Shown piece after piece: positions 6,934-62,151 of a stretch of 64,000 bases of DNA. The stretch covers positions 124,001 through 188,000 of the forward strand of contig NZ_JAAQPI010000013.1 in assembly GCF_011683955.1 (NCBI RefSeq), in the 5' to 3' direction. A program made the position numbers and the translations under genes. The first letter of the stretch is position 1. The number at the start of each line of letters is the position of its first letter. The DNA is from Pseudomaricurvus alkylphenolicus (GTDB lineage: Bacteria; Pseudomonadota; Gammaproteobacteria; Pseudomonadales; Cellvibrionaceae). The notes beneath the pieces were generated by a model. The model saw only the letters and a program-made list of their open reading frames with translations. It made no database searches and was not told the DNA's origin.

Positions 6934-7725
6934 CTAGGCGAAAAACATCAAAAGAACCGCCGCTAAAGCCAGTCGGTAGAGCACAAACGGCCACATCCCC
7001 AGATTATCGATCCATTTCAGGAACCAATGAATGCACAATGTGGCACTCATGGCTGACAAAATCACCCCAAGCAGGATATCCATCCAGAAAATGGAAGATT
7101 CTCCGATTAACCCCACCGCCTTGTATCCACCGCTCAACGCAATCAGTGGAATCGACAGCAGAAAAGAAAAACGGGCTGCGTCCTGTCGTTTGAGCCCCAC
7201 CGCCAGCCCCATGGTCATGGTGATACCGGAACGCGACGTACCGGGAATCAACGCGAGCGCTTGGGCACAGCCAATCAACATTGCTTGAGATAGCGTCAAT
7301 TGATCTAACGTCTGACGTCTTGCGCCCTTTATATCCGCCCACCCCAAGACCAATCCAAACAAAGCGGTGGCCGAGGCAATAACGACCACTGAACGCAGGT
7401 GATTTTCAATAACGTCATTGAACAGTAATCCAGCCAAACCCGCAGGCGCCGTTGCCCAAATAACAAACCAAGCCAATTTGGAATCTGTAGATGTCTGTCC
7501 TCTCAGACTGCCAATCCAGGCAAGAAACAGTTTGGAAATATCCTTCCGAAAGTACCCAACCACCGCCAACAGCGAACCTACGTGAACGGCGACATCAAAT
7601 GCCAACCCCTGATCACTCCATCCCAGCAGCTGGCTGGGCAAAATCAGGTGGCCGGAACTGGAAATGGGCAGAAATTCCGTCACACCCTGAATCAAAGCGA
7701 GCGCAATCAGTTGCAGAGCATCCAT
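6934..7725 (-). CDS. uppP: Undecaprenyl-diphosphatase
   Basis: Integral membrane phosphatase (UppP/BacA) that dephosphorylates undecaprenyl pyrophosphate to recycle the carrier lipid for peptidoglycan and other envelope polymers. The 263-residue length and multiple hydrophobic helices fit. The family motifs are present: GVTEFLPISSSGHLIL near residue 14 and IPGTSRSGITMT near residue 160, which form the active site. It lies 39 bp downstream of tsaB on the same strand. Confidence 0.95.
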   Translation of the reverse strand: MDALQLIALALIQGVTEFLPISSSGHLILPSQLLGWSDQGLAFDVAVHVGSLLAVVGYFRKDISKLFLAWIGSLRGQTSTDSKLAWFVIWATAPAGLAGLLFNDVIENHLRSVVVIASATALFGLVLGWADIKGARRQTLDQLTLSQAMLIGCAQALALIPGTSRSGITMTMGLAVGLKRQDAARFSFLLSIPLIALSGGYKAVGLIGESSIFWMDILLGVILSAMSATLCIHWFLKWIDNLGMWPFVLYRLALAAVLLMFFA

Positions 7726-7764
7726 ATCGGCAGTCTTAGCTACGAAAAAGTGAATGACAGTATC

Positions 7765-49909: not shown

Positions 49910-50869
49910 TTACAGCGCCTGCTCCAGGGTTTCGGGATCGCGCTCAAACTGCACTTCACCCAACTGCGGTGTCTGCTTGCACTCCCCACACACCACATCC
50001 ACTGCCAGATCCTCGCCGCAGCTGGCATGCACCAGGCGGAACGGATGTGCTACCGGCGGCAAATTATCCAGCACCCACTGGCGCAGGGCCATGGTCTGCC
50101 CGTACAGGGATTTACCTTTTTCCGTCAGACGGTACTCAAACCGCGGCGGGCTTGACTGATATTCGCTGCGCGCCAACACCTCACTGTCCACCAGAGACTT
50201 GAGTCGGTCTGCGAGAATATTGGTGGCGATACCCAGTTGCTGTTGAATGTCATCGTAGCGGTGCAGACCGATAAACATGGCGGCCAGAATCAAGGTGGTC
50301 CAGCGATCACCCAAAATGCCGACAACGTGTGACAGAGCCTGGTCAGAGCCGGAATGGGTCTGTTGGCGACTGCGCCGCTGGCTGCCCAATCCCTTACTGA
50401 TTTCACTGGCGGGAACCGGTTCCGCATCCGGAGAGATCACACGTTTGACGTCGTCATAACGCAACTCCTGGCGGCAATGCCGGCAGATGCATTGCGGCTT
50501 CAAACCATGCTCCTGGCCCAAGTGATGCTGCAGTGGTACCGGGCCACCTCCACCACCGCTGCCCCAGCGAGACTCCCACTCCCACAACAACAAGGTCCAG
50601 GGATATAACGCCAGCCCCTTCTCGGTCAGCCAGTAGCCGTAACGCTCAGGGCTCTGACAGTAGAGCTGCTTGAACAGAATCCCATCTTCCACCAGCCCTT
50701 CCAGCCGATTGGCCAGAGTACCCCGGGCCGCGCCTGTGTGTTCACGAAACTCATTAAAGCGGTGACGTCCCAGGAAGGCGTCCCGCAAGATCAACATCGT
50801 CCATCGGTCACCGATGATATTGAGCCCCCGCGCTACGGGGTTGGTCACAATCTGATTGGCAATTTGCAT
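49910..50869 (-). CDS. Tandem HxlR-type transcriptional regulator
   Basis: 319 residues from ATG 50869 (MQIANQIVTNPVARGLNIIG); an ATG at 50923 would add 18 residues. Two complete HxlR winged-helix domains are fused: about 1-105 (GDRWTMLILRDAFLGRHRFNEF) and about 178-275 (GDRWTTLILAAMFIGLHRYDDI). Each is followed by a Cys cluster: CICRHC near 152, and SCGEDLAVDVVCGEC near 294. HxlR proteins usually have a single domain of about 110-150 residues and act as dimers; here the dimer may be built into one chain. It is divergent from the aldehyde dehydrogenase operon, so it is the probable regulator of the island. Confidence 0.88.
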   Translation of the reverse strand: MQIANQIVTNPVARGLNIIGDRWTMLILRDAFLGRHRFNEFREHTGAARGTLANRLEGLVEDGILFKQLYCQSPERYGYWLTEKGLALYPWTLLLWEWESRWGSGGGGGPVPLQHHLGQEHGLKPQCICRHCRQELRYDDVKRVISPDAEPVPASEISKGLGSQRRSRQQTHSGSDQALSHVVGILGDRWTTLILAAMFIGLHRYDDIQQQLGIATNILADRLKSLVDSEVLARSEYQSSPPRFEYRLTEKGKSLYGQTMALRQWVLDNLPPVAHPFRLVHASCGEDLAVDVVCGECKQTPQLGEVQFERDPETLEQAL

Positions 50870-50967
50870 AGCGCAAAGTCTAGCGAAAATCCCCCACACA
50901 TGAAACGCGGACATGATGCTCAAAGTTGATCAGCATCAACCCTTCTGTTAGTCTCATATCAAAAGCT

Positions 50968-50984
50968 ACTTGCATTAATGAACC
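50968..50984 (+). promoter_or_regulatory. Repeat motif A, upstream of the paaN-like operon
   Basis: ACTTGCATTAATGAACC, one of four near-identical 17-mers in the island. It is followed at 50988-51000 by AAAGAACCCATAA, which also occurs attached to motif B. It lies between the HxlR gene and the first gene of operon 1, so it is a candidate operator or activator site. Confidence 0.65.
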
Positions 50985-51031
50985 ATCAAAGAACCCATAA
51001 AGAAAACCAGCCAGATTGGGAGACCGCCACT

Positions 51032-52705
51032 ATGCATCACTGGTTTGAGCAGCATTCGGACACGCTTGACCGCGCCCTCGACGCCTGTCAAAAACGCTAC
51101 GCCTGGAGCGCCTATACAGAAAGTCCCAGCAGCAAAATTCACGGCAAGGAAAGACCCGCAGCAGGTAAAGCCAACTTTCAAAATATGCTGGGTAACGCCT
51201 TTCCCCTGGAGCAGCCCGGCCAGATCGGCGTGACCGGCGAAGAGATCTCCCCCTATACCCGCGAGCCTCTCGAGGTGACCTACCCCAAAATTGATATCAA
51301 TGTGCTTTACCAGGCCATTGAAGAGGCGCTGCCCGGCTGGCGAGATGCCGGCATCGAAACCCGCGTGGGTATATGTCTGGAGATGTTGCACCGCTGCTCA
51401 GAACAGCTGTTTGAAAATGCCCACGCCACCATGCACACCTCTGGGCAAAGTTACATCATGGCGTTCGCCGGCAGTGGCGCCAATGCCCTGGACCGAGGCC
51501 TCGAAGCCCTGGCCTACGCCTACAAAGCCATGAAAGATGTACCGGCCACAGCTGACTGGCGGCGCAGTTTTGGCGGCGACGGCGCCGCACATCTACAGAA
51601 AACCTATAAAATCATGCCCAGGGGTATCAGCGTCGCTGTGTGCTGCGCCACCTTTCCTCTGTGGAATGGCTATCCTGCGTTGATGGCGAGCCTGGCGACC
51701 GGCAATCCCGTTGTCATGAAACCCCATCCCAGCGCCATCCTGCCAGTCGCATTGATGGTAAAAACCTGCCGCGAGGCACTCCTTGATGCTGGCTTCGATC
51801 CTAACCTGGTCACCCTCGTCGCCGACACCCGCGCCCAACCGGCAACGCTGGATTTACTGCAACACCCACGAACCGCGATTGTTGATTTCACCGGCAGCCC
51901 GACCTTTGGCCGGTGGATAGAAACAAACTGCACTCGCGCTCAGGTTTACACAGAAACCGCCGGTTGCAATTCCGTGGTTCTGGAATCCTGCAATGACCTG
52001 CAGGCTGTCGCCGGCGCCATCGCTCACTCGCTATGCCAGGCATCTGCACAGATGTGCACCAGCGTACAAAATATTCATGTGCCCGCCGAAGGTATTCTTG
52101 TGCAGGATGAAAAAGTCAGCTTCGAAGGTGTTTGCGAAGCCCTGGTATCTGCCGTTGAAGATCACCTGAAGGACCCCGCCAAAGCCGCCTTTCTGTGCGG
52201 CACTCTGGTCACGGAAGATATCTACCAGACCATTGAGGGCATTCGCCGTGAAGGCAGAGAGCGAGGCAGGCTGCTCAGAGATTCCGGTCCCTACGATCAT
52301 CCTGAATTCACCAATGCCCGAACAGCCACGCCACTTATGCTGGCGGTTACGCAAAAGGAAAGGGATCTGTATAGCCAGGAGCTGTTCGGTCCCATTTCGT
52401 TTGTTATCAAAGGAGGCGATGCCGACGATTGCTTGAAGGCGGCAACCCGCGATGCCTGTGAACACGGAGCCATTACCTCCCATGTATACTCTGCAAACAC
52501 TGAATTTCTGCAACGCGCCCAGGATGCCTACAACCTGGCCGGCGCCTCCGTCGCCTGCAACCTGGTCGGCATGCCAATCAATTTCGCGGCGGCCTACAGC
52601 GACTTTCATGTGAGCGGCCTCAACCCCGCGGGCAATGCCTGTCTGACCGACCTGGCGTTTGTCGCCAACCGCTTTCGAATTGTGCAGCGCAAGGTGATGG
52701 TGTGA
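51032..52705 (+). CDS. PaaN-like aldehyde dehydrogenase
   Basis: 557 residues from ATG 51032 (MHHWFEQHSDTLDRALDACQ), chosen because GGGAGA lies 9 nt upstream and the earlier ATG at 50978 falls inside the conserved repeat motif. It resembles the phenylacetate-pathway protein PaaN: an aldehyde-dehydrogenase fold with PRGISVAVCCATFPLWNGYP, GNPVVMKPHPSA (NAD site), VDFTGSPTFGRWIE, catalytic Glu in YTETAGCNS and catalytic Cys in SAQMCTSVQN. PaaN-type enzymes oxidise ring-opened CoA semialdehydes; the substrate here is inferred to be an aldehyde or CoA-semialdehyde. First gene of operon 1. Confidence 0.85.
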   Translation: MHHWFEQHSDTLDRALDACQKRYAWSAYTESPSSKIHGKERPAAGKANFQNMLGNAFPLEQPGQIGVTGEEISPYTREPLEVTYPKIDINVLYQAIEEALPGWRDAGIETRVGICLEMLHRCSEQLFENAHATMHTSGQSYIMAFAGSGANALDRGLEALAYAYKAMKDVPATADWRRSFGGDGAAHLQKTYKIMPRGISVAVCCATFPLWNGYPALMASLATGNPVVMKPHPSAILPVALMVKTCREALLDAGFDPNLVTLVADTRAQPATLDLLQHPRTAIVDFTGSPTFGRWIETNCTRAQVYTETAGCNSVVLESCNDLQAVAGAIAHSLCQASAQMCTSVQNIHVPAEGILVQDEKVSFEGVCEALVSAVEDHLKDPAKAAFLCGTLVTEDIYQTIEGIRREGRERGRLLRDSGPYDHPEFTNARTATPLMLAVTQKERDLYSQELFGPISFVIKGGDADDCLKAATRDACEHGAITSHVYSANTEFLQRAQDAYNLAGASVACNLVGMPINFAAAYSDFHVSGLNPAGNACLTDLAFVANRFRIVQRKVMV

Positions 52706-53949
52706 ACGATGTTTTTATTGCCGGCGTCGGCATGACGGCGCTGGGTCGGTTTGTGGATCGCAGCGTGAAAAACCTGACCCGAGAAGCAGTATGGCGTTGC
52801 CTGGAAGACGCCAATGCCCAGATTTCCGACGTGGAAGCAGCTTGGTTCTCCAATTCGCGCCAGGGTCTGCTCGAAGGCCAGAATGGCATCCGCGGTCAAT
52901 GCGCGCTGCGCCCGCTGGGCTTGCAAAACATCCCCATCACCAACGTCGAAAATGCCTGTGCCTCAGGCAGCACGGCATTGTCCCAGGCATATGCACACAT
53001 TGGCGCGGGCCTGTGTGAAACCGCTCTGGTTGTCGGTGCGGAAAAAATGTTTTTCCCGGATCAACGGGAAGCCATGTTCAAAGCGTTTTTGGGAGGCACC
53101 GACATCGAGCAACTGGAGAGTTTTCGTGACCACACCCAGAGCATGGCTGCTCATTTAATCCCTCCGGACCTGCCCGAAGGCGGCCAACGCAGCTTCTTTA
53201 TGGACAGTTATGCCGGTCAGGCGCGTTTGCACATGGACCACTACGGCACCACCCGAGAACAGCTCGCCGAAGTCGCCGTCAAGAATCGGTGGCATGCAAC
53301 CTTTAATCATCATGCACAATTTCAAAAGACATTAACCGTAGACCAGGTTCTCGCTGAACGATTGATCAGCTGGCCATTTACGCTACCCATGTGCGCACCG
53401 ATTTCCGATGGCGCCTGTGCGATAGTGATCTGTGCCTCTTCCGCTCTGCCCCGTCTGCAGCCAGATCGCGCCGTGAAAATACGAGCGATTGAACTGGCCA
53501 GTGGCAGTGATCGTGACGACAGAGATTTTGCCAATCATATTGGTCGCCGAGCGGCGCTGGCAGCCTACGAACAGGCGCACATTGACCCCGGCGACACGGA
53601 CCTGGTCGAAGTGCACGACGCCACTGCCTACTCGGAAATCCAACAAATCGAAAACCTGGGTTTATGCCCGTTGGGAGAAGGCGGCAGCTTTAGCGCCGCC
53701 GGTCACACTCGCCTGGGCGGCAAGATACCGGTAAACCCGTCTGGAGGATTAATTTCCAAAGGACACCCGGTGGGAGCCACAGGCCTGATGCAATTGCACG
53801 AACTCACCACCCAGCTGCGCGGCGAAGCCGGCAAGCGACAGGTCTCCGGTGCCCGCCTTGCGGTGGCAGAAAACGGTGGCGGTTTTTACCGTAACGAAGA
53901 AGCCGTGACAGCGGTCACCGTGTTGGAAAAAATGGGAGCAACACCATGA
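52702..53949 (+). CDS. Thiolase family protein, SCP2/lipid-transfer type
   Basis: 415 residues, GTG start at 52702 overlapping the aldehyde dehydrogenase stop by 4 bp. The N-terminus VFIAGVGMTALGRF and the nucleophile Cys in VENACASGSTALSQAY are thiolase-like. The His motif is GGLISKGHPVGATGLMQLHE. In place of the second Cys of classical thiolases (CxG) it has AENGGGFYRN, as in SCP-x-type and steroid/aromatic-side-chain thiolases. Likely cleaves a 3-ketoacyl-CoA or carries out a retro-aldol-type step on a bulky substrate. Confidence 0.85.
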   Translation: MNDVFIAGVGMTALGRFVDRSVKNLTREAVWRCLEDANAQISDVEAAWFSNSRQGLLEGQNGIRGQCALRPLGLQNIPITNVENACASGSTALSQAYAHIGAGLCETALVVGAEKMFFPDQREAMFKAFLGGTDIEQLESFRDHTQSMAAHLIPPDLPEGGQRSFFMDSYAGQARLHMDHYGTTREQLAEVAVKNRWHATFNHHAQFQKTLTVDQVLAERLISWPFTLPMCAPISDGACAIVICASSALPRLQPDRAVKIRAIELASGSDRDDRDFANHIGRRAALAAYEQAHIDPGDTDLVEVHDATAYSEIQQIENLGLCPLGEGGSFSAAGHTRLGGKIPVNPSGGLISKGHPVGATGLMQLHELTTQLRGEAGKRQVSGARLAVAENGGGFYRNEEAVTAVTVLEKMGATP

Positions 53950-55505
53950 CTGAGTCTATTAAGTTTTTACCCATTGACTGTCTCTACCAGGGCGTCGCTA
54001 TTAATCCCGGTGCGACCGCAATTGAGGATCACCAAACCTCACTAAGCTACCACGATCTGGTTATTCAAGTTGAGGCTCTGGCGCTGGCGCTGGCCCAACA
54101 ACTGCCGCCGCAAAGTCGCGTGGCACTGTGCGCTCAAAACCACGCACCTCATATTATCGCCTTCTTGGCCATTCTGGCAGCGGGTATGATCTGGATACCC
54201 GTCAACCCCAAAAACGGCGCCCAACTGAATCGTAAATTATTACAGCGCGTTGATCCTGACCTGTTGATGATTGACCGGAACAGTGCTGACGCACTGGCGT
54301 TTGATCCAGGCTCAACATTGAAGACAGCACACACTCTGTTTCTCGACGGAGACCAGAGTCCACATATTGACGACTGGATTCGACCTAATTCGGGCAAACC
54401 GTTTTCACCTGCACGTCCGGCCGTCGATAGTATTATGGCCATTAAGTTTACCGGCGGTTCTACCGGTGAACCCAAGGGCGTAATGCAAAGCCATCTCAAT
54501 GTCGCCACTGTGGTGGACAACCTTCAGGCCAGCTACCAATTTACTCGCGAAGATTGCAACCTCACTGTCGCACCTCTGACCCATGGCGCCTCTCACCTTA
54601 TTCTGCCCATTCTCGCCGCAGGCGCAAGACATCTTATTCTGCCAGACAGCAACACAGACACCATTCTGGATGCGTTCACTCGGCGCGGTGCCAGCGTGTG
54701 TTTTATGCCACCCACACTGATCTATAAACTACTGGAACACCCAGACGCGTGCCCTGAAAACCTTCCACACTTGAGACACTTGATTTACAGCGCCGCTCCC
54801 ATGCCCCCTGCACGCATTCAACAAACATTGGATCGACTGGGCCCGGTACTGTCAACGCTCTATGGACAAACCGAAGCCCCGATGACCATCACCACACTCG
54901 ACAACAACGAGATGCGGAAACCCGAACTGCAATCCTCCGTCGGCCGTGCCTGTAAACACAGTGACCTTGCGATTCTCGATGACAAGGGCAGATCCCTCCC
55001 TGCCGGCCAAATTGGAGAAGTGGCCATTGCGGGCCCGCTGGTCATGAACGGCTACTATCGGGAAGATGACAAAACCGGCGCCACCATGAGCGGCCAGTGG
55101 CTGCGCACGGGGGACCTGGGATGCTTGGACAAACAAGGTTATCTGTTTTTGCAGGGGCGCTCCAGCGACGTCATTATCAGCGGCGGTTTCAATGTCTACC
55201 CCAGCGAAGTGGAGAACCTGCTGATCGATATGCAGGGAATTACAGAATGCGTTGTCTTCGGAAAACCCGATGACTACTGGGGAGAATGCGTTGAAGCTGT
55301 GGTCTGTCTTCAGAACGACGCTTGTTTCGACGAAAAACAACTGCGACAAACCATCAAAGAACGGCTGGGCCCCATCAAAACCCCAAAACGAATCCATCAG
55401 CTGGAACAACTGCCTCGCAATCCGGTAGGAAAAGTGGTACGACGTGATGTCGCCACCCTGATCCAAACCCAACAGCTTGCCCGACATTCGGAGATGACAA
55501 AATGA
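53946..55505 (+). CDS. AMP-dependent acyl-CoA synthetase (operon 1)
   Basis: 519 residues, ANL superfamily. It overlaps the thiolase stop by ATGA. The P-loop-like AMP motif is IKFTGGSTGEPKGVMQSH. The A5 motif is LYGQTEAPMT, A7/A8 is WLRTGDLGCLDKQGYLFLQG and SSDVIISGGFNVYPSEVE, and the C-terminal catalytic Lys is in RNPVGKVVR. No signal peptide. Activates a carboxylic acid to its CoA thioester. The acid is unknown; aromatic or medium-chain acids would fit. Confidence 0.9.
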   Translation: MTESIKFLPIDCLYQGVAINPGATAIEDHQTSLSYHDLVIQVEALALALAQQLPPQSRVALCAQNHAPHIIAFLAILAAGMIWIPVNPKNGAQLNRKLLQRVDPDLLMIDRNSADALAFDPGSTLKTAHTLFLDGDQSPHIDDWIRPNSGKPFSPARPAVDSIMAIKFTGGSTGEPKGVMQSHLNVATVVDNLQASYQFTREDCNLTVAPLTHGASHLILPILAAGARHLILPDSNTDTILDAFTRRGASVCFMPPTLIYKLLEHPDACPENLPHLRHLIYSAAPMPPARIQQTLDRLGPVLSTLYGQTEAPMTITTLDNNEMRKPELQSSVGRACKHSDLAILDDKGRSLPAGQIGEVAIAGPLVMNGYYREDDKTGATMSGQWLRTGDLGCLDKQGYLFLQGRSSDVIISGGFNVYPSEVENLLIDMQGITECVVFGKPDDYWGECVEAVVCLQNDACFDEKQLRQTIKERLGPIKTPKRIHQLEQLPRNPVGKVVRRDVATLIQTQQLARHSEMTK

Positions 55506-55951
55506 CGAATACCAATTTTAATCAGCAGTCCGAACACATGACCGGACTGGAACGCCTGCGGACATTCGAGCAACAACCAGAACGTCGAGGTATGGCGGAA
55601 AATCTCGGATATCAATTGGAAAGTGTTGAAGCGGATCAAGTGATAATGAGTTATCGCCCTAAAGAACGCCATATGAACCTGCTGGGCTCGTTACATGGAG
55701 GCATTCTCGCTTCTCTACTGGACACCGCAATGGGATGTGCCGTAATGACAAGACTGGACGCCGGCGAGGGGCATACCATGACGGATCTGAACACCAAGTT
55801 TTTGCGCGCGGTAATGGACCCTGATGAGGTGCTGACGATTAAAGCCTGGGTGGATCACAATGGACGGCGTTTGCTGTCCGCAGCCGGAACGATTGTTGAC
55901 AGTCAATCGCGATTGGTGGCACGTGCTATGGCAACAGCGGTTCGGTTGTAG
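55502..55951 (+). CDS. PaaI-type hot-dog thioesterase
   Basis: 149 residues, overlapping the ligase stop by ATGA. The hot-dog core contains LLGSLHGGILASLLDTAMGCAV with the HGG motif and the catalytic acidic residue, then MTDLNTKFLRA. PaaI-family enzymes hydrolyse aromatic or acyl-CoA esters and can release CoA trapped in dead-end intermediates. Last gene of operon 1. Confidence 0.9.
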   Translation: MTNTNFNQQSEHMTGLERLRTFEQQPERRGMAENLGYQLESVEADQVIMSYRPKERHMNLLGSLHGGILASLLDTAMGCAVMTRLDAGEGHTMTDLNTKFLRAVMDPDEVLTIKAWVDHNGRRLLSAAGTIVDSQSRLVARAMATAVRL

Positions 55952-56025
55952 TTTTTGGCTCTGTGACTCGGAGTGGGTACCAGAAATTAACTATGAGGCA
56001 GGTAACTTTGTGAACTGAGGTGTCG

Positions 56026-56171
56026 GAGGTGGCCGGGGTGTTGTTTTCAAAGCATTAAAGAGGGCGCCGAAGGAGTCAATGAGACCGGCGTTTTTTTGCC
56101 GGGCTCATTTGGGACTGAGGGCAGCCCGGAGGGCCGCCCGACCGCTTTGAAAACAACACCCCGGCCGCCTC
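56026..56171. repeat. 146-bp nested palindromic element of unknown type
   Basis: The outer arms are 28 nt (56026-56053 and 56144-56171), complementary except for one position; each contains GTGTTGTTTTCAAAGC or its complement. Inside is a second hairpin, AATGAG-a-CCGGC, a loop with seven T, GCCGG-g-CTCATT (56078-56109), then a smaller GC-rich hairpin near 56119-56139. There is no open frame of note. It could be a MITE, a REP/REPIN-class repeat, a structured RNA or an elaborate terminator after operon 1. The whole 55952-56417 space has no gene. Confidence 0.75.
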
Positions 56172-56287
56172 ATGAGGCACCCAACCCCTAGCATCCGTTT
56201 GCAAAATCCAACAACCCTCTAATTTCCCCAACAAAAACAAGCACTTAAAAAACCAACAAAAATACTGTCACCAAAATCCAACCAAAG

Positions 56288-56304
56288 ACTTGCATTAAAG
56301 AACC
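56288..56304 (+). promoter_or_regulatory. Repeat motif B, upstream of operon 2
   Basis: ACTTGCATTAAAGAACC. It differs from motif A at a single base in the 17-mer. The overlapping AAAGAACCCATAA (56297-56309) is identical to a 13-mer next to motif A. Confidence 0.65.
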
Positions 56305-56323
56305 CATAAGCTAAACTAAATCT

Positions 56324-56340
56324 ACTTGCATTAGAGAACT
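56324..56340 (+). promoter_or_regulatory. Repeat motif C, upstream of operon 2
   Basis: ACTTGCATTAGAGAACT, 36 bp downstream of motif B in the same orientation. Confidence 0.6.
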
Positions 56341-56351
56341 CACGCCCAATA

Positions 56352-56368
56352 ACTTGCATTAAAAGACC
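56352..56368 (+). promoter_or_regulatory. Repeat motif D, upstream of operon 2
   Basis: ACTTGCATTAAAAGACC, 28 bp downstream of motif C in the same orientation and 50 bp before the first start codon of operon 2. The array ends at a likely promoter-proximal position. Confidence 0.6.
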
Positions 56369-56417
56369 ATACATATTAAATGGAAATATCATTGGATACA
56401 CCAGAGAACACCAACCC

Positions 56418-57350
56418 ATGACCAAACCCACAGATCTACCCACACAACTGCGACTGCCCGCTATGCAGGCCCCCATGTTTCTGATCAGCGGCCCCGACAT
56501 GGTCATCAACGCCTGCCGCGCGGGCATCATCGGCTGCTTTCCCACACCCAACGCCCGCACCACGGAGACCCTGGATGAATGGATGGGACAAATCACCGAG
56601 GCACTGAAACCGCAGGATGCCCCCTGGGCCGTCAACCTCATCGTGCACCCCTCCTACCCCCGCAGAGATGCCGACCTGGAACTTATCCTCAAACACAAAC
56701 CCCCGGTTGTCGTCACCGCACTGGGAAGCCCCCGACACGTCGTCGAACAAATCCACAACTATGGCGGCCTGGTGCTCGCCGATGTCATCAACCCCACCTT
56801 CGCCCGCAAAGCCGCATCCGCCGGTGTTGACGGCTTGGTCCTGGTAAGCACCGGCGCCGGAGGCCATACCGGCTACCTCTCCCCCTTCGTGTTTATCAAC
56901 GAAATTCGCCAATGGTGGGACGGACTCATTGTATTGGGCGGCGGCATCAGCACCGGCCGTGACATTCACGCTGTCCAAACCATGGGCGCAGACATCGCCT
57001 ACATCGGCACCCGCTTTATCGCCACCGACGAAGGCCTCTGCAAGACCGAATACAAACAGATGGTGGTCGACTCCGGCGCCGACGACATCGTCACCTCCGA
57101 CGCCATCACCGGCGTCAAAGCCAACTGGATGCGCCAATCCCTGATCAAAGGCGGCTACGACCCCGACAACATGCCCGCCAAAGGCAGCGTCGACTTCGCC
57201 AGCAACGGTGCCGACAACAAACGCTGGAAAGACATCTGGGCTGCCGGTCAAGGCGTCGGTGCAACCCGTGCGATTGAAAAAATCGCCAACATCGTCGACC
57301 AACTCGATCTCGAATACCGCGCCTCCAAAGAACGCATGCAACAACTCTGA
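56418..57350 (+). CDS. Nitronate monooxygenase-family flavoprotein
   Basis: 310 residues, TIM-barrel FMN protein. The N-terminal PAMQAPMFLISGPDMV, the central LVSTGAGGHTGYLSPFVFI (the GGHTG motif holds the family's active-site His) and IVLGGGISTGRDIHAV with GADIAYIGTRFIA for FMN phosphate are visible. Family members oxidise alkyl nitronates or act as enoyl reductases, and many in catabolic clusters have no known role. First gene of operon 2; C-rich third codon positions differ somewhat from operon 1. Confidence 0.88.
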   Translation: MTKPTDLPTQLRLPAMQAPMFLISGPDMVINACRAGIIGCFPTPNARTTETLDEWMGQITEALKPQDAPWAVNLIVHPSYPRRDADLELILKHKPPVVVTALGSPRHVVEQIHNYGGLVLADVINPTFARKAASAGVDGLVLVSTGAGGHTGYLSPFVFINEIRQWWDGLIVLGGGISTGRDIHAVQTMGADIAYIGTRFIATDEGLCKTEYKQMVVDSGADDIVTSDAITGVKANWMRQSLIKGGYDPDNMPAKGSVDFASNGADNKRWKDIWAAGQGVGATRAIEKIANIVDQLDLEYRASKERMQQL

Positions 57351-57369: not shown

Positions 57370-58914
57370 ATGAGCCAATTGCCACTGACAGAACGCACCG
57401 TAATTACCCGCAGCCGCGACGGCCAACTGCCCACCGACGCACCGGAATGGGTCTACGATATTGATAACCCCTATCTGCATGGTGTCTACGCCCCAACCAC
57501 GGTTGAAACTCAAAGCGACCACCTGGAAATCATTAGCGGTGAGATACCCAAGGACCTTAACGGCGCCTATTTAAGAAACGGCCCCAACCCCGTTTATCAA
57601 CCCAAACACAATCACCACCCCTTCGATGGCGACGGCATGCTCTACGGCATTTATTTTCGCGACGGTAAAGCCAGCTATCGCAACCGCTGGATTCACACGG
57701 AAGCCTTCGAAAAAGAAGCCGAGGCCGGCGAAGCGATTTGGCCCGGGGTGATGGGTCCTTTTGACTTCAACCTGCCCGGCTTTCCAATCAAGGACACCTC
57801 CAATACCGACGTAATGTTCTTTAATAATCACATCATGTCGCTCTGGTACAACGCCGGTATTCCCTATCAACTGGACCCTCGCACACTGGAAACCACCGGC
57901 CGCGAAAATCTCAACGGTCAACTCAAACGTGCGCTCTCGGCTCATTCAAAAGTGGACTGGGAAAAAGAAGAGCTTATCTACTTCGATTACTTCGATGAAT
58001 TCCCCTACATGAGTTATGGCATTGCCGATCGCAACGGCAAGGTGATTCACGAACAGCCCATCGAACTGCCGGGACCTCGCCTGCCTCACGATATTGGCGT
58101 GACACCCAATTTCGTCATCCTGCACGACTGCCCGTTCTTTCACGATGTGGACTTATTGGAACGGACCAATAAACGGATCAACACCTTCCATCGCGACATG
58201 CCCACACGCTTCGGTGTACAGCCCCGTTACGGCAAAGGTGACGAAGTACAGTGGTTCGAGTGCGAACCCTGTTACATCCTGCACGTGGTCAACTGCTGGG
58301 AGGAAGGCGACTGGGTGATTCAGGTGGGCTGTCGCTCCACCAATCCCATGCCCAAAGCCGACGCCGAGGACGGCGACCTTTCCCATATGCTGGCCTATAT
58401 GCGCCTCGAAGCCAATATGTACATCTGGAAATTCAACCTCAAAACGGGCGAAGTGGTGGAAGGCGACATTGATACATTGAACACTGAATTCTGCCGCTCC
58501 AACCCTTTGTACATGGGCTACAAAAGCCGCTACAGCTACAACCAGTACATCATGACCAAGGCCGACGATAATGTGGGTACCCTCGCCTTCGGCGCATTGC
58601 TCAAGTACGACATCGAAGCCGGAACCCTGCAACGTTACGACTATGGTAAAGGCGTCTTTGGCAGCGAAGCCCCCTTCTGCCCTCGCCAGGGTGCCACCCG
58701 CGACAATGCTGAAGATGACGGCTATCTGGTTAACTTTGTCACGGACACCAACGACTGGCAGTCCTACTGCCTGATCTTTGATGCCCACAACATAACACCC
58801 GGTCCCATTTGCAAACTTCGACTGCCCCACCGACTGCCTTATGGCTTTCACGCCAATTGGGTTCGGGGGGACGACATCTATAAGCCAACTGCAAACACGG
58901 GCTTGCCTTCATGA
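57370..58914 (+). CDS. Carotenoid oxygenase / lignostilbene dioxygenase-family protein
   Basis: 514 residues from ATG 57370 (MSQLPLTERTVITRSRDGQL) with AAGGA 8 nt upstream; the frame is open further upstream, out of frame with the preceding gene. Seven-bladed propeller iron enzyme. The N-terminal motif is YLRNGPNPVYQPKHNHHPFD with GDGMLYGIYF. The four iron His are probably in SAHSKVDWE, VILHDCPFF, CYILHVVNCW and GFHANWV. Members cleave C=C bonds of carotenoids, stilbenes or phenylpropenes such as isoeugenol. No signal peptide. The neighbours favour a catabolic role. Confidence 0.9.
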   Translation: MSQLPLTERTVITRSRDGQLPTDAPEWVYDIDNPYLHGVYAPTTVETQSDHLEIISGEIPKDLNGAYLRNGPNPVYQPKHNHHPFDGDGMLYGIYFRDGKASYRNRWIHTEAFEKEAEAGEAIWPGVMGPFDFNLPGFPIKDTSNTDVMFFNNHIMSLWYNAGIPYQLDPRTLETTGRENLNGQLKRALSAHSKVDWEKEELIYFDYFDEFPYMSYGIADRNGKVIHEQPIELPGPRLPHDIGVTPNFVILHDCPFFHDVDLLERTNKRINTFHRDMPTRFGVQPRYGKGDEVQWFECEPCYILHVVNCWEEGDWVIQVGCRSTNPMPKADAEDGDLSHMLAYMRLEANMYIWKFNLKTGEVVEGDIDTLNTEFCRSNPLYMGYKSRYSYNQYIMTKADDNVGTLAFGALLKYDIEAGTLQRYDYGKGVFGSEAPFCPRQGATRDNAEDDGYLVNFVTDTNDWQSYCLIFDAHNITPGPICKLRLPHRLPYGFHANWVRGDDIYKPTANTGLPS

Positions 58915-60578
58915 TCTTGACGTCGGAGGACAACAGACAGCGCTACCGGGAACAGGGGCACTGGGGTGAGCAGCGTTTACACGATCCGCTCTTCGTCACC
59001 GCGGAGAAACATCCCGATCGCATCGCGTTGGTCGACCCGGCCAACAAGTCGGAACTCTGCGGTCTTGCTCCTCAACGTTGGACCTATGGGGAACTGACAC
59101 AACGGGTAAACCAGCTGGCTTGCGTTCTTTTGCAACAGGGCATTGCCAAAGACGATATTCTGTTGGTACAGATGCCCAATATTGTCGAGCTGGTTCTCGT
59201 GTACCTGGCCGCTTCTAAATTGGGTGCCGTTGTCAGCCCGGTACCGGTACAGTACCAGGCTCGCGAACTTTCCAATATTACGCAAGTGCTGAACCCCAAA
59301 GCGGCCATCAGCGTTGCCGAGTTCAAGGACAGAACCTTCGGAACACATCTACGTGCCGCCCTGGAACAGTTCGACAGCATTCCGCTGTGGTTGTGGGGCA
59401 GCAGCAATGACGATGACTTGCAGACTCTAAGTGATCAGATTAACAGCTTCGAACCTCTTCAGGAGTACACAGAGCGTACGCCGGTCACTGCCGATGATGT
59501 GGTTACCATCTGCTGGACTTCTGGAACCGAGGGCATCCCCAAAGGTATCCCCCGCTCTCACAACCAGTGGTTCTGCGTCGGTAAAGCAACCTACGAAGGC
59601 AATGCCATGCAAGAAGGGGAAGTGCTGTTAAATCCCTTCCCGTTTATCAATATGGCCTCCATTGGGGGCCTATTTTTGAGCTGGCTATACAGCGGCGGAA
59701 AACTGGTTTTGCATCACCCAATGAACCTGCCTGTTTTTCTACAACAGATTGTCGAAGAACAGGTGACCTACACCCTCGCCCCCCCTGCCCTGCTTAACAG
59801 CTTATTAAAGGATGAGCGACTGATAAGCGCCTGTGATCAGGCCTTCTCCTCAAGCCGAGTGCGCGCCATCGGCTCCGGTTCCGCGCCGCTCGACGATTGG
59901 ATGGTGGCCGGTTTCAAACAACGCTACGGCATTGAGGTGGTCAACCACTTTGGTTCCAACGAAGGTGTCAGTCTGGTTTGTGGACCCGAGGACACTCACA
60001 ACCCAGAGAAGCGCGCTCGACTCTTTGCTCGTGAAAGCAAGATTATGCAATCACGCTTGGTAGATCCGGAAAGCGGCACAGAAGTGACCGAATCGGGCGT
60101 CTGCGCTGAGCTGCAAATCCGAGGACCCGGTGTATTCGATGGCTATTTTAAAGACCCCGAAAAAACATCGGCATCCTTCACCGACGATGGCTATTTTAAA
60201 ACCGGTGACCTGTTCGAGGTATTACCTCAAGACTCTCGTTTTTACCGTTTTGTCGGTCGCTGCAAGGACCTGATCATTCGCGGCGGTATGAATATCGCGC
60301 CGGCCGAACTGGACAACTTGATCAGCGCGCACCATGACGTATTGGAAGCCGCCGTAGCGGGCTACCCCTGCGATCTATTGGGCGAGCGTGTCGCCGCATT
60401 TGTCGTCAGCAAGTCGGGGCAGTCTCTGAGCTTGGACGCCATTGTGACGTTTCTGAAATCACAACAACTGGCCAATTTTAAATTGCCGGAAAAACTGGTG
60501 ATGGTGCAAACCATTCCCCGCAATCCCCTTGGCAAAGTGCTGCGCCAAAAACTCAGCGACTCTCTGATTGCCCGGTAA
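58911..60578 (+). CDS. AMP-dependent acyl-CoA synthetase (operon 2)
   Basis: 555 residues, overlapping the oxygenase stop by ATGA. The AMP motif is ICWTSGTEGIPKGIPRSH; A5 is NHFGSNEGVSL, A7 is YFKTGDLFEV, then KDLIIRGGMNIAPAEL, and the C-terminal Lys is in RNPLGKVLRQ. General layout resembles cyclohexanecarboxylate/benzoate- or DHB-type ligases. It is only distantly similar to the operon 1 ligase by eye, so the two likely activate different acids of the pathway. Confidence 0.9.
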   Translation: MILTSEDNRQRYREQGHWGEQRLHDPLFVTAEKHPDRIALVDPANKSELCGLAPQRWTYGELTQRVNQLACVLLQQGIAKDDILLVQMPNIVELVLVYLAASKLGAVVSPVPVQYQARELSNITQVLNPKAAISVAEFKDRTFGTHLRAALEQFDSIPLWLWGSSNDDDLQTLSDQINSFEPLQEYTERTPVTADDVVTICWTSGTEGIPKGIPRSHNQWFCVGKATYEGNAMQEGEVLLNPFPFINMASIGGLFLSWLYSGGKLVLHHPMNLPVFLQQIVEEQVTYTLAPPALLNSLLKDERLISACDQAFSSSRVRAIGSGSAPLDDWMVAGFKQRYGIEVVNHFGSNEGVSLVCGPEDTHNPEKRARLFARESKIMQSRLVDPESGTEVTESGVCAELQIRGPGVFDGYFKDPEKTSASFTDDGYFKTGDLFEVLPQDSRFYRFVGRCKDLIIRGGMNIAPAELDNLISAHHDVLEAAVAGYPCDLLGERVAAFVVSKSGQSLSLDAIVTFLKSQQLANFKLPEKLVMVQTIPRNPLGKVLRQKLSDSLIAR

Positions 60579-60594: not shown

Positions 60595-62151
60595 ATGACA
60601 CCACAACAATTTACAGGCTTGGCACTCGCGCTCATGACCCCGCCCCTGTTGGCGTCGGCAAATTCCACTGCCACGCAACCCTGTGAACAGCTGACGCCAC
60701 CGGCAAATGTCATTTTCGAAAAGACGCCAGGCTGGCAACAGCCTGACGACTTACCGCGTTTTTGCCAGGTACGCGGTCAGATCGAAGGCCGCACCCGCTT
60801 TGAACTGCGCCTGCCGGAAGACTGGAACGGGCGTTTTGTGATGGCCGGCTGCGGCGGTTTTTGCGGCTCTCTGCAACCGGATAAAAAAGGCCACTCCAAC
60901 AGCATTAACGAAGCCCTGAAAAAAGGCTACGCCGCAATAAGCCATGACGGCGGTCACACAAGCAAGAGCTGGGAAACCGATTGGGCCTATGAGGATCCCA
61001 CCGCGCTGGAACTCTATGCCCATCGTATTTTGCCCCAAGTAACCGGTGCAGGCACAGAACTCACCACTCAACTTTATGGTCAACCGCCCGAGTATCGTTA
61101 TTTTTCCGGCTGTTCCAATGGCGGTCGCCTGGGCATGATGGCGGCGCAGCGTTATCCGGGTTTGTTTGACGGTATCGCCGCCGGCGGCGGTATCTTCAGC
61201 ATCAGCCAGATCGCCGGGCTCTGGGGCAATTGGATGATCCAGCAGACGGGAGCAGAATCCGAGCCGGTTTTTAACCCGCAGAAAAACCCGTTGATCAAAC
61301 AAGCGATCCTGAAACAATGCGACACCCTGGACGGACTCGCGGACGGGGTTATTACTGACCCTCGTCAGTGCCAGTTTGACTTTAAAACGCTGCAATGTGA
61401 CAACAACGAAGATACAGAACATTGTCTGACCCCAGACGAATCGGCGATGCTCAGTCGGTTATATGGCGGCGTGCTGGACAAACGGGGGCAACTGGTGAGC
61501 CCGGCGCTGTCATTCGGCTCAGAACACTATACCGACATCTGGCTGTTTGGAAGTCTCGACAAACCGGCCTGGGGCAGCGCTGCATCGCGAGGTTATCGCC
61601 AACTGTTGTCACACAACTTATTCAGCAGCGACAGCCATCAGCCTGTCTCTACGGATACCATGCAGCAGTGGATCGGGCAGTCGACCCTGCCCGCCCTCAC
61701 CGATGCTGACAATCCGGATCTCACCTCGTTGGCTCGACATAAAACGAAACTGATGATCTATCACGGCTGGTCCGATCCACTCATTATTCCGCAACCGATG
61801 GTGGACTACTACGAACAAGCCTCGGAGCATTCCGGTGGCCTGGAGAAACTCAAGGAAAACGCGCGACTGTATATGGTCCCGGGCTGGGGTCACTGCTGGG
61901 AGCGTCCTGCAGAAACTCCGGCGGAATTTGATCCACTGGAGATCGTCGCCAATTGGGTGGAACAAGGTAAAGCTCCAGAAAGCTTTATCGCCAGTCAACG
62001 CAGCCCGCTGGGAGAACTGCTTCGGCAAAGACCCATCTGCGCCTACCCACAAGTCGCCAATCTTGTTAATAGAGAACTCCCCAACCGGGCAGACAGCTAC
62101 CGCTGTGGTCCACCTGTAGCACCCGCAATAGCACCACCTGAAACACGATAG
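60595..62151 (+). CDS. Exported tannase/feruloyl esterase-family hydrolase
   Basis: 518 residues from ATG 60595 (AGGAG upstream) giving the signal peptide MTPQQFTGLALALMTPPLL, cut near ASA. A longer ATG at 60568 overlaps the ligase gene and lacks a ribosome-binding site. The family's Cys-Ser ... Asp ... His-Cys catalytic arrangement is seen: SGCSNGGRLGMM (Ser174), HGWSDPLIIP (Asp) and PGWGHCWERP (His-Cys). Family members hydrolyse gallate, ferulate, chlorogenate or MHET esters. Periplasmic or secreted action is inferred. It precedes the TonB receptor by 42 bp. Confidence 0.9.
   Translation: MTPQQFTGLALALMTPPLLASANSTATQPCEQLTPPANVIFEKTPGWQQPDDLPRFCQVRGQIEGRTRFELRLPEDWNGRFVMAGCGGFCGSLQPDKKGHSNSINEALKKGYAAISHDGGHTSKSWETDWAYEDPTALELYAHRILPQVTGAGTELTTQLYGQPPEYRYFSGCSNGGRLGMMAAQRYPGLFDGIAAGGGIFSISQIAGLWGNWMIQQTGAESEPVFNPQKNPLIKQAILKQCDTLDGLADGVITDPRQCQFDFKTLQCDNNEDTEHCLTPDESAMLSRLYGGVLDKRGQLVSPALSFGSEHYTDIWLFGSLDKPAWGSAASRGYRQLLSHNLFSSDSHQPVSTDTMQQWIGQSTLPALTDADNPDLTSLARHKTKLMIYHGWSDPLIIPQPMVDYYEQASEHSGGLEKLKENARLYMVPGWGHCWERPAETPAEFDPLEIVANWVEQGKAPESFIASQRSPLGELLRQRPICAYPQVANLVNRELPNRADSYRCGPPVAPAIAPPETR

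Follow-up and report, generated by a model that had tools for sequence, protein, structure and literature searches.

Predicted operators of a tandem HxlR regulator upstream of two catabolic operons

We analysed a 64,000-nucleotide stretch of the Pseudomaricurvus alkylphenolicus genome (contig NZ_JAAQPI010000013.1, positions 124,001 to 188,000; hereafter the window), in which two neighbouring operons are preceded by a recurring short sequence. Five sites, named A', A, B, C and D, are predicted to be operators of the adjacent tandem-domain regulator HxlR2, which would control the two operons of one catabolic pathway; judged from sequence, we give this reading a probability of about 0.85. Comparison with relatives shows conservation of the putative operator, its association with HxlR2 and its location at the promoters of pathway genes. 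The predicted two-operon regulon is well supported, and the operator is probably bound by the tandem HxlR protein. The original prediction, made from the window alone, had proposed that a single DNA-binding protein acts on both operons and had named the adjacent tandem HxlR as the candidate. In support of this, the operator is conserved next to HxlR2 orthologs, relatives of genes from both operons have sites upstream, and sites co-occur with HxlR2 among genomes.

That prediction had described a 17-nucleotide repeat in four same-strand copies. We confirmed all four on the forward strand, at 50968-50984, 56288-56304, 56324-56340 and 56352-56368, each beginning with ACTTGCATTA; the copy spacings of 36 and 28 bp were also right. 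The exact 10-mer ACTTGCATTA occurs four times in the window against about 0.09 expected (dinucleotide model, both strands). With one mismatch allowed the window still holds just these four, which is not unusual (shuffle mean 3.3). The abundance at unrelated genomic sites that would speak against a regulon was not seen: the 8.88-Mb genome has eight exact copies of ACTTGCATTA, namely the four in the window, three near the ends of two contigs and one unrelated. The two contigs have an identical 127-base end in common, probably the end of an insertion sequence. Three perfect matches to ACTTGCATTANANRAC exist genome-wide, which are B, C and D; A is among three matches with one mismatch.

The 17-mer as the full unit was ruled out by a conserved motif of about 22 bp from relatives. 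The conserved 22-bp operator is TAGTCTCATAATGCAAGTTACT; its ends, TAGT...ACTA, enclose a lopsided core, ATAATGCAAGTT, which is conserved too. The 17-mer comes from the reverse complement of the operator and, on that opposite strand, covers the stretch best conserved in this genome. The sites in the window are listed below with weight-matrix scores in bits and results from R1, a covariance-program model of 39 relatives' sites, none of them from the window.

50949-50970, + strand: operator A' (TAGTCTCATATCAAAAGCTACT), 22.7-22.8 bits with window-free matrices, first or second in the 64 kb; p 1.3e-8; second by R1, E 0.46
50964-50985, - strand: operator A (holds the 17-mer 50968-50984), 12.1 bits; fifth in the window by R1, E 1.9
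56284-56305, - strand: operator B (17-mer 56288-56304), 9.6 bits; fourth in the window by R1, E 1.5; under 5 bits, and so unlisted, with the first blind matrix
56320-56341, - strand: operator C (17-mer 56324-56340), 9.8 bits; third in the window by R1, E 0.84
56348-56369, - strand: operator D (17-mer 56352-56368), 24.7 bits, p 3.3e-9; R1 E 0.0012 in the window; best genome-wide, E 0.16

A' lies on the opposite strand to A, overlaps the 22-bp site of A by 7 bp and has weight-matrix scores far above those of A, B and C. It is a fifth copy in the window, where no other than the four had been noticed, and the supposed single site upstream of operon 1 is a pair of overlapping, oppositely directed sites. 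A blind matrix built from 25 relatives' upstream regions scored A' at 22.7, D at 21.0 and A at 10.3 bits; an unrelated site came fourth and C fifth (6.4). With the matrix from 39 relatives' sites the order was D (24.7), A' (22.8), A (12.1), C (9.8) and B (9.6), the next site scoring 5.6 bits, and the top five by R1 were D, A', C, B and A. A match elsewhere in the genome, C66 (20.7 bits, between AraC-type and MCP-type genes), is not counted as an operator, being at chance level (0.95 expected).

A 13-mer, AAAGAACCCATAA, had been reported beside the repeat in copies A and B. It is present in both (50988-51000 and 56297-56309), but in B it overlaps the repeat. In A it is found about 11 bp further on, as though the flank of A had been duplicated.

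50988-51000, + strand: 13-mer AAAGAACCCATAA, which in our reading resembles a second operator half 11 bp past A's own

An arrangement with both key sites exactly 66 bp before the start codons was discarded, since with the ATG at 51032 the distances are 64 and 66.

The operator is conserved at pathway-gene promoters of relatives

For motif discovery, 350 bp upstream of HxlR2 were taken from 42 loci falling into 26 clusters; with the window excluded, 25 regions were analysed by expectation maximization. The resulting motif, TAGTCTCATAATGAAAGTTACT (23 bits), reached a log-likelihood of 220, compared with 71-75 in four shuffled sets run with half as many seeds and iterations. In a leave-one-cluster-out analysis, a cluster's own sites were removed from the matrix, and the target was defined as up to 300 bp upstream of a homolog of any of 11 query genes (HxlR2, the eight operon genes, a nitroreductase and a TonB receptor). 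The top-scoring site of a locus, searched over its full length, lay inside the target windows, which make up 7.8% of the DNA, in 41 of the 42 loci and 25 of the 26 clusters; at L119 the best site lay outside the promoter windows and the second-best inside. The TonB query had been added after a site was noticed there in L061. When these windows were omitted (leaving 6.9% of the DNA), the count was 38 of 42 loci and 22 of 26 clusters, with L110, L111 and L109 missing as well. Column-permuted matrices served as a further control because promoters are AT-rich: 100 of them gave a mean of 5.2 and a maximum of 17 of the 42 loci, against 41 for the real matrix (TonB windows included). The operator was found conserved upstream of related genes in other genomes, as is asked of a regulon. 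TonB-receptor homologs have sites at L111, L068 and, weakly, L109. The 36-bp spacing of site pairs recurs in L061 and L095; spacings of 18, 23 and others also occur, and the arrays therefore have no common helical phase.

HxlR2 orthologs (E ≤ 1e-60) were detected in 13 of 144 family genomes and 17 of 390 order-sampled genomes, the source genome being counted in both. The bearers include Cellvibrionaceae, Microbulbifer, Pseudoteredinibacter, Spongiibacter, Zhongshania, Parahaliea, Arenicella, Thalassotalea and others. A contig scan with the single HxlR2 protein as query gave no matches; an alignment-based scan gave 31 loci, from which the weak actinobacterial L140 was left out. An RPE65-family or PaaN-type homolog is present in the fetched stretch of 40 of the 42 non-duplicate loci (33 RPE65, 13 PaaN), and neither in L111 and L109.

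Four sites that had not entered training were also found at related genes. In Pseudoteredinibacter one lies about 55 bp before an ortholog (57% identical) of the second ligase of the operons, AMP ligase 2, and another about 53 bp before a thiolase gene; the same-genus genome G115 has one about 53 bp before an RPE65-family gene, and in G119 one is found between LysR-type and acyl-coenzyme A (CoA) dehydrogenase genes, just upstream of the latter. G115 carries two operators 36 bp apart, followed by genes for a TonB receptor, a nitronate monooxygenase (NMO), an RPE65-type protein, AMP ligase 2 and a thiolase; this TonB-NMO-RPE65-ligase array is the counterpart of operon 2. Two class-level genomes unused before, G769 and G864, both have sites between HxlR2 and RPE65, and belong to the same genus as the source of L137; G657 is very probably L137 itself and was therefore not counted.

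HxlR2 carries two HxlR domains in one chain

49910-50869, - strand: hxlR2, 319 residues, ATG at 50869, with a Cys-containing segment after each of its two HxlR winged-helix domains (PF01638, 139.8 bits over two stretches, cut-off 20.8)

The AlphaFold model of HxlR2 (predicted local distance difference test score 79.6, predicted template modelling score 0.78) matches 2f2e, 4gcv, 4a5n, 5hs7 and 7bzg by domain. Unlike these solved one-domain members, HxlR2 has two HxlR domains per chain, and we treat it as a variant within the domain family. Its best matches by both sequence and fold are P. aeruginosa PA1607 (2f2e) and PA1374 (4gcv). These have chains of 146 and 168 residues in which the HxlR match ends at 121, as a single unit, so each is probably one HxlR domain plus an extension. 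HxlR2 looks like two PA1607/PA1374-type units fused. A conserved C-x2-C segment after each HxlR domain is possibly a zinc site or a redox sensor.

The B. subtilis HxlR gene adjoins its target operon. That protein, the activator of hxlAB, has the same winged-helix domain, and there is an AGTATC half-site in the DNA crystallised with it: the oligonucleotide holds AGTATC/GATACT (PMC7835342; PDB 7BZG). The operator ends AGTMTC/GTTACT resemble this oligonucleotide, and several sites have AGTATC as their left end. B. subtilis HxlR is a single-domain, formaldehyde-dependent activator crystallised with a symmetric 20-base oligonucleotide, whereas HxlR2 has two domains and probably a lopsided 22-bp site and a repressor role. 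SarS of S. aureus has two winged-helix units in one chain. It is a weak fold match to HxlR2 (1p4x, rank 47, E 0.056) and is of the MarR/SarA type, not HxlR. YodB-type proteins sense redox state and quinones via Cys and use symmetric boxes. YodB, CatR and HypR, the B. subtilis HxlR/DUF24 proteins, belong to the same domain family as HxlR2 (PDB 5hs7, 4a5n) and are single-domain chains in the PDB; repression of catDE by YodB and CatR is described in PMC6212828. Compared with known HxlR regulators, what appears to be new here is the pair of domains in one chain and the lopsided operator. Neither a tandem HxlR protein nor an operator for one was described among the results listed by a literature search, and queries for HxlR regulons and SarS-like proteins were likewise unproductive there.

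HxlR2 would probably bind the operator with two unlike winged-helix domains gripping two unlike halves. The B-C-D array and the overlapping A'/A pair may provide tighter or cooperative control.

Two more tandem-HxlR genes, convergent and about 34% identical to HxlR2, are present at L075 (G000:C11:1010000-1023000), a 13-kb stretch in which no operator-like site above 4 bits was found. At L145 (G000:C6), a single-domain HxlR paralog has a weak operator-like site a short way upstream, at 7719-7740 (13.8 bits, a score expected 46 times in the genome); judged by eye, this site has greater symmetry (TAGT...ACTA with GTT/AAC) and may be the form that suits a homodimer.

Promoter geometry favours a repressor

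50926-50931, + strand: TTGATC, candidate -35 hexamer read from the sequence, 17 bp before A'

The position of the sites relative to candidate promoter elements favours HxlR2 as a repressor. Among 27 forward sites, TTGACA-like hexamers are enriched at starts 21-25 bp upstream of the operator (3.56 matches versus 2.95; 0 of 500 shuffles as good). This was the strongest signal among nine offset windows, no single offset showed it (743 of 1000 shuffles did as well), and the 27 sites were treated as unrelated. Boxes at this distance would therefore put the operator over the -10. The gap between operator and start codon is 1 nt in L127, 15 nt in L137 and 28 nt in L073. A repressor so placed would cover the -10/start region and may be released on binding a compound of the pathway, for which an aldehyde or acyl-CoA produced by alkene cleavage is one possibility.

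The alternative that survives best keeps the same operator and HxlR2 and has the protein recruit polymerase as a ligand-dependent activator, in the manner of B. subtilis HxlR. We consider this unlikely. PMC7835342 describes HxlR as a positive regulator activated by formaldehyde, and the distance from the end of the operator to the start codon, 48 nt for D, 76 for C and 112 for B, leaves space for a promoter downstream. The short gaps in L127, L137 and L073, however, leave too little room for a downstream promoter, and the -35-like hexamers occur in a set range upstream of the operator.

Assignment of the sites to another widespread regulator, with hxlR2 as a mere neighbour, we regard as improbable. 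An AraC-type gene is found near C66 and a LysR-type gene beside the L162 site, and G012, which lacks HxlR2, has a good site. We treat the G012 site as a false positive. Of the 13 family genomes with HxlR2, 8 have a site at E ≤ 0.1, as does 1 of the 131 lacking it (Fisher 3e-9); this co-occurrence leans largely on genomes that supplied training sites, and p is 0.002 when only the three genomes that have untrained sites are counted. The window's own genome falls short of this cut. The match of the half-site to the HxlR co-crystal DNA likewise speaks for an HxlR protein. The poorest explanation, that B-D are just fragments of promoters, with TTGCAT as the -35, or AT-rich DNA that was duplicated, and that no regulator is involved, is very improbable: TTGCAT could act as a -35, the region has 36% GC versus 55% in the window and B and C score weakly, but column-permuted matrices of equal composition fail to give the pattern, the operator occurs in other genera and the 36-bp pair is seen again in L061 and L095.

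Several results weigh against our reading of the five sites as HxlR2 operators placed for repression, beyond the limits on the -35 and co-occurrence signals and the activator role of B. subtilis HxlR. Within the window, R1 gives a significant E-value to D alone (0.0012); those of A', C, B and A are 0.46-1.9. The genome-wide R1 search, among the 150 of 964 candidates scored, gave D (E 0.16) and one chance-level match, not the other four sites. A, B and C are weak as whole sites (9.6-12.1 bits), since 106-331 such scores are expected by chance genome-wide. The operator is no palindrome by a whole-matrix test, in which self-complementarity was negative at every shift tried; only its ends mirror each other. 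Neither of the two regions in the window gave a promoter in a strict sigma-70 scan, and sites occur in both orientations relative to genes.

The two operons suggest oxidative cleavage of a conjugated alkene

Operon 1
51032-52705, + strand: gene 1, PaaN-type aldehyde dehydrogenase (TIGR02288, 612.7 bits, cut-off 578.75)
52702-53949, + strand: gene 2, thiolase/SCP2-like (family search; 4-bp overlap with gene 1)
53946-55505, + strand: gene 3, AMP-forming acyl-CoA ligase (family search)
55502-55951, + strand: gene 4, hotdog (4HBT) thioesterase (family search)

Operon 2
56418-57350, + strand: gene 1, NMO-like flavoprotein (PF03060)
57370-58914, + strand: gene 2, RPE65/carotenoid-cleavage-type oxygenase (PF03055, 403 bits)
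58911-60578, + strand: gene 3, AMP-forming acyl-CoA ligase (family search)
60595-62151, + strand: gene 4 (probable), tannase/feruloyl-esterase family (PF07519, 320 bits)

The genes of operon 1 are joined by 4-bp overlaps. Its dehydrogenase likely starts at ATG 51032, which follows GGGAGA, a plausible ribosome site; an in-frame ATG at 50978 lies inside copy A, where gene finders could start the dehydrogenase 18 codons early. Operon 1 was rejected as a paa (phenylacetate) operon: the dehydrogenase passes as PaaN, but the thioesterase, with a score of 31.2, stays under the PaaI cut-off of 118.9. The RPE65-type oxygenase lies under all three NCBIfam equivalog cut-offs that it matched, for lignostilbene/apocarotenoid dioxygenases (260.5/675, 231.1/800 and 186.8/650), and belongs only to the broad RPE65 family. 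Taken by their predicted families, the genes suggest uptake and oxidative cleavage of a conjugated alkene of the carotenoid or stilbene type, followed by CoA-ester breakdown.

Between the operons, at 56026-56171, lies an element of about 150 bp with 28-nt terminal inverted repeats (96% complementary) and a predicted fold of -104.8 kcal/mol (z -8.5). At least 39 further diverged copies, 78-89% identical, occur genome-wide (40 of 71 candidates scored). Weaker partial matches were seen in four Pseudoteredinibacter-group genomes and none in five other same-genus genomes (five candidates scored in each); Rfam gave only sub-threshold microRNA-family matches.

Implications

As a wider picture, which we offer tentatively and at somewhat less than even odds, HxlR2 might be a covalent, lopsided HxlR dimer that reads a directional 22-bp site, present in arrays, as a head-to-head overlap and within the -10. 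In this role it would govern an undescribed uptake-and-cleavage regulon of marine gammaproteobacteria comprising a TonB receptor, an alkene-cleaving oxygenase, ligases and thiolases. The analysis provides a comparison-supported operator for a tandem HxlR regulator, and ties TonB receptor, RPE65-type oxygenase, PaaN dehydrogenase, ligases and thiolases into one predicted pathway. This link makes the substrate searchable by inducer screening of one reporter, and the reading of a lopsided site by a fused dimer becomes testable.

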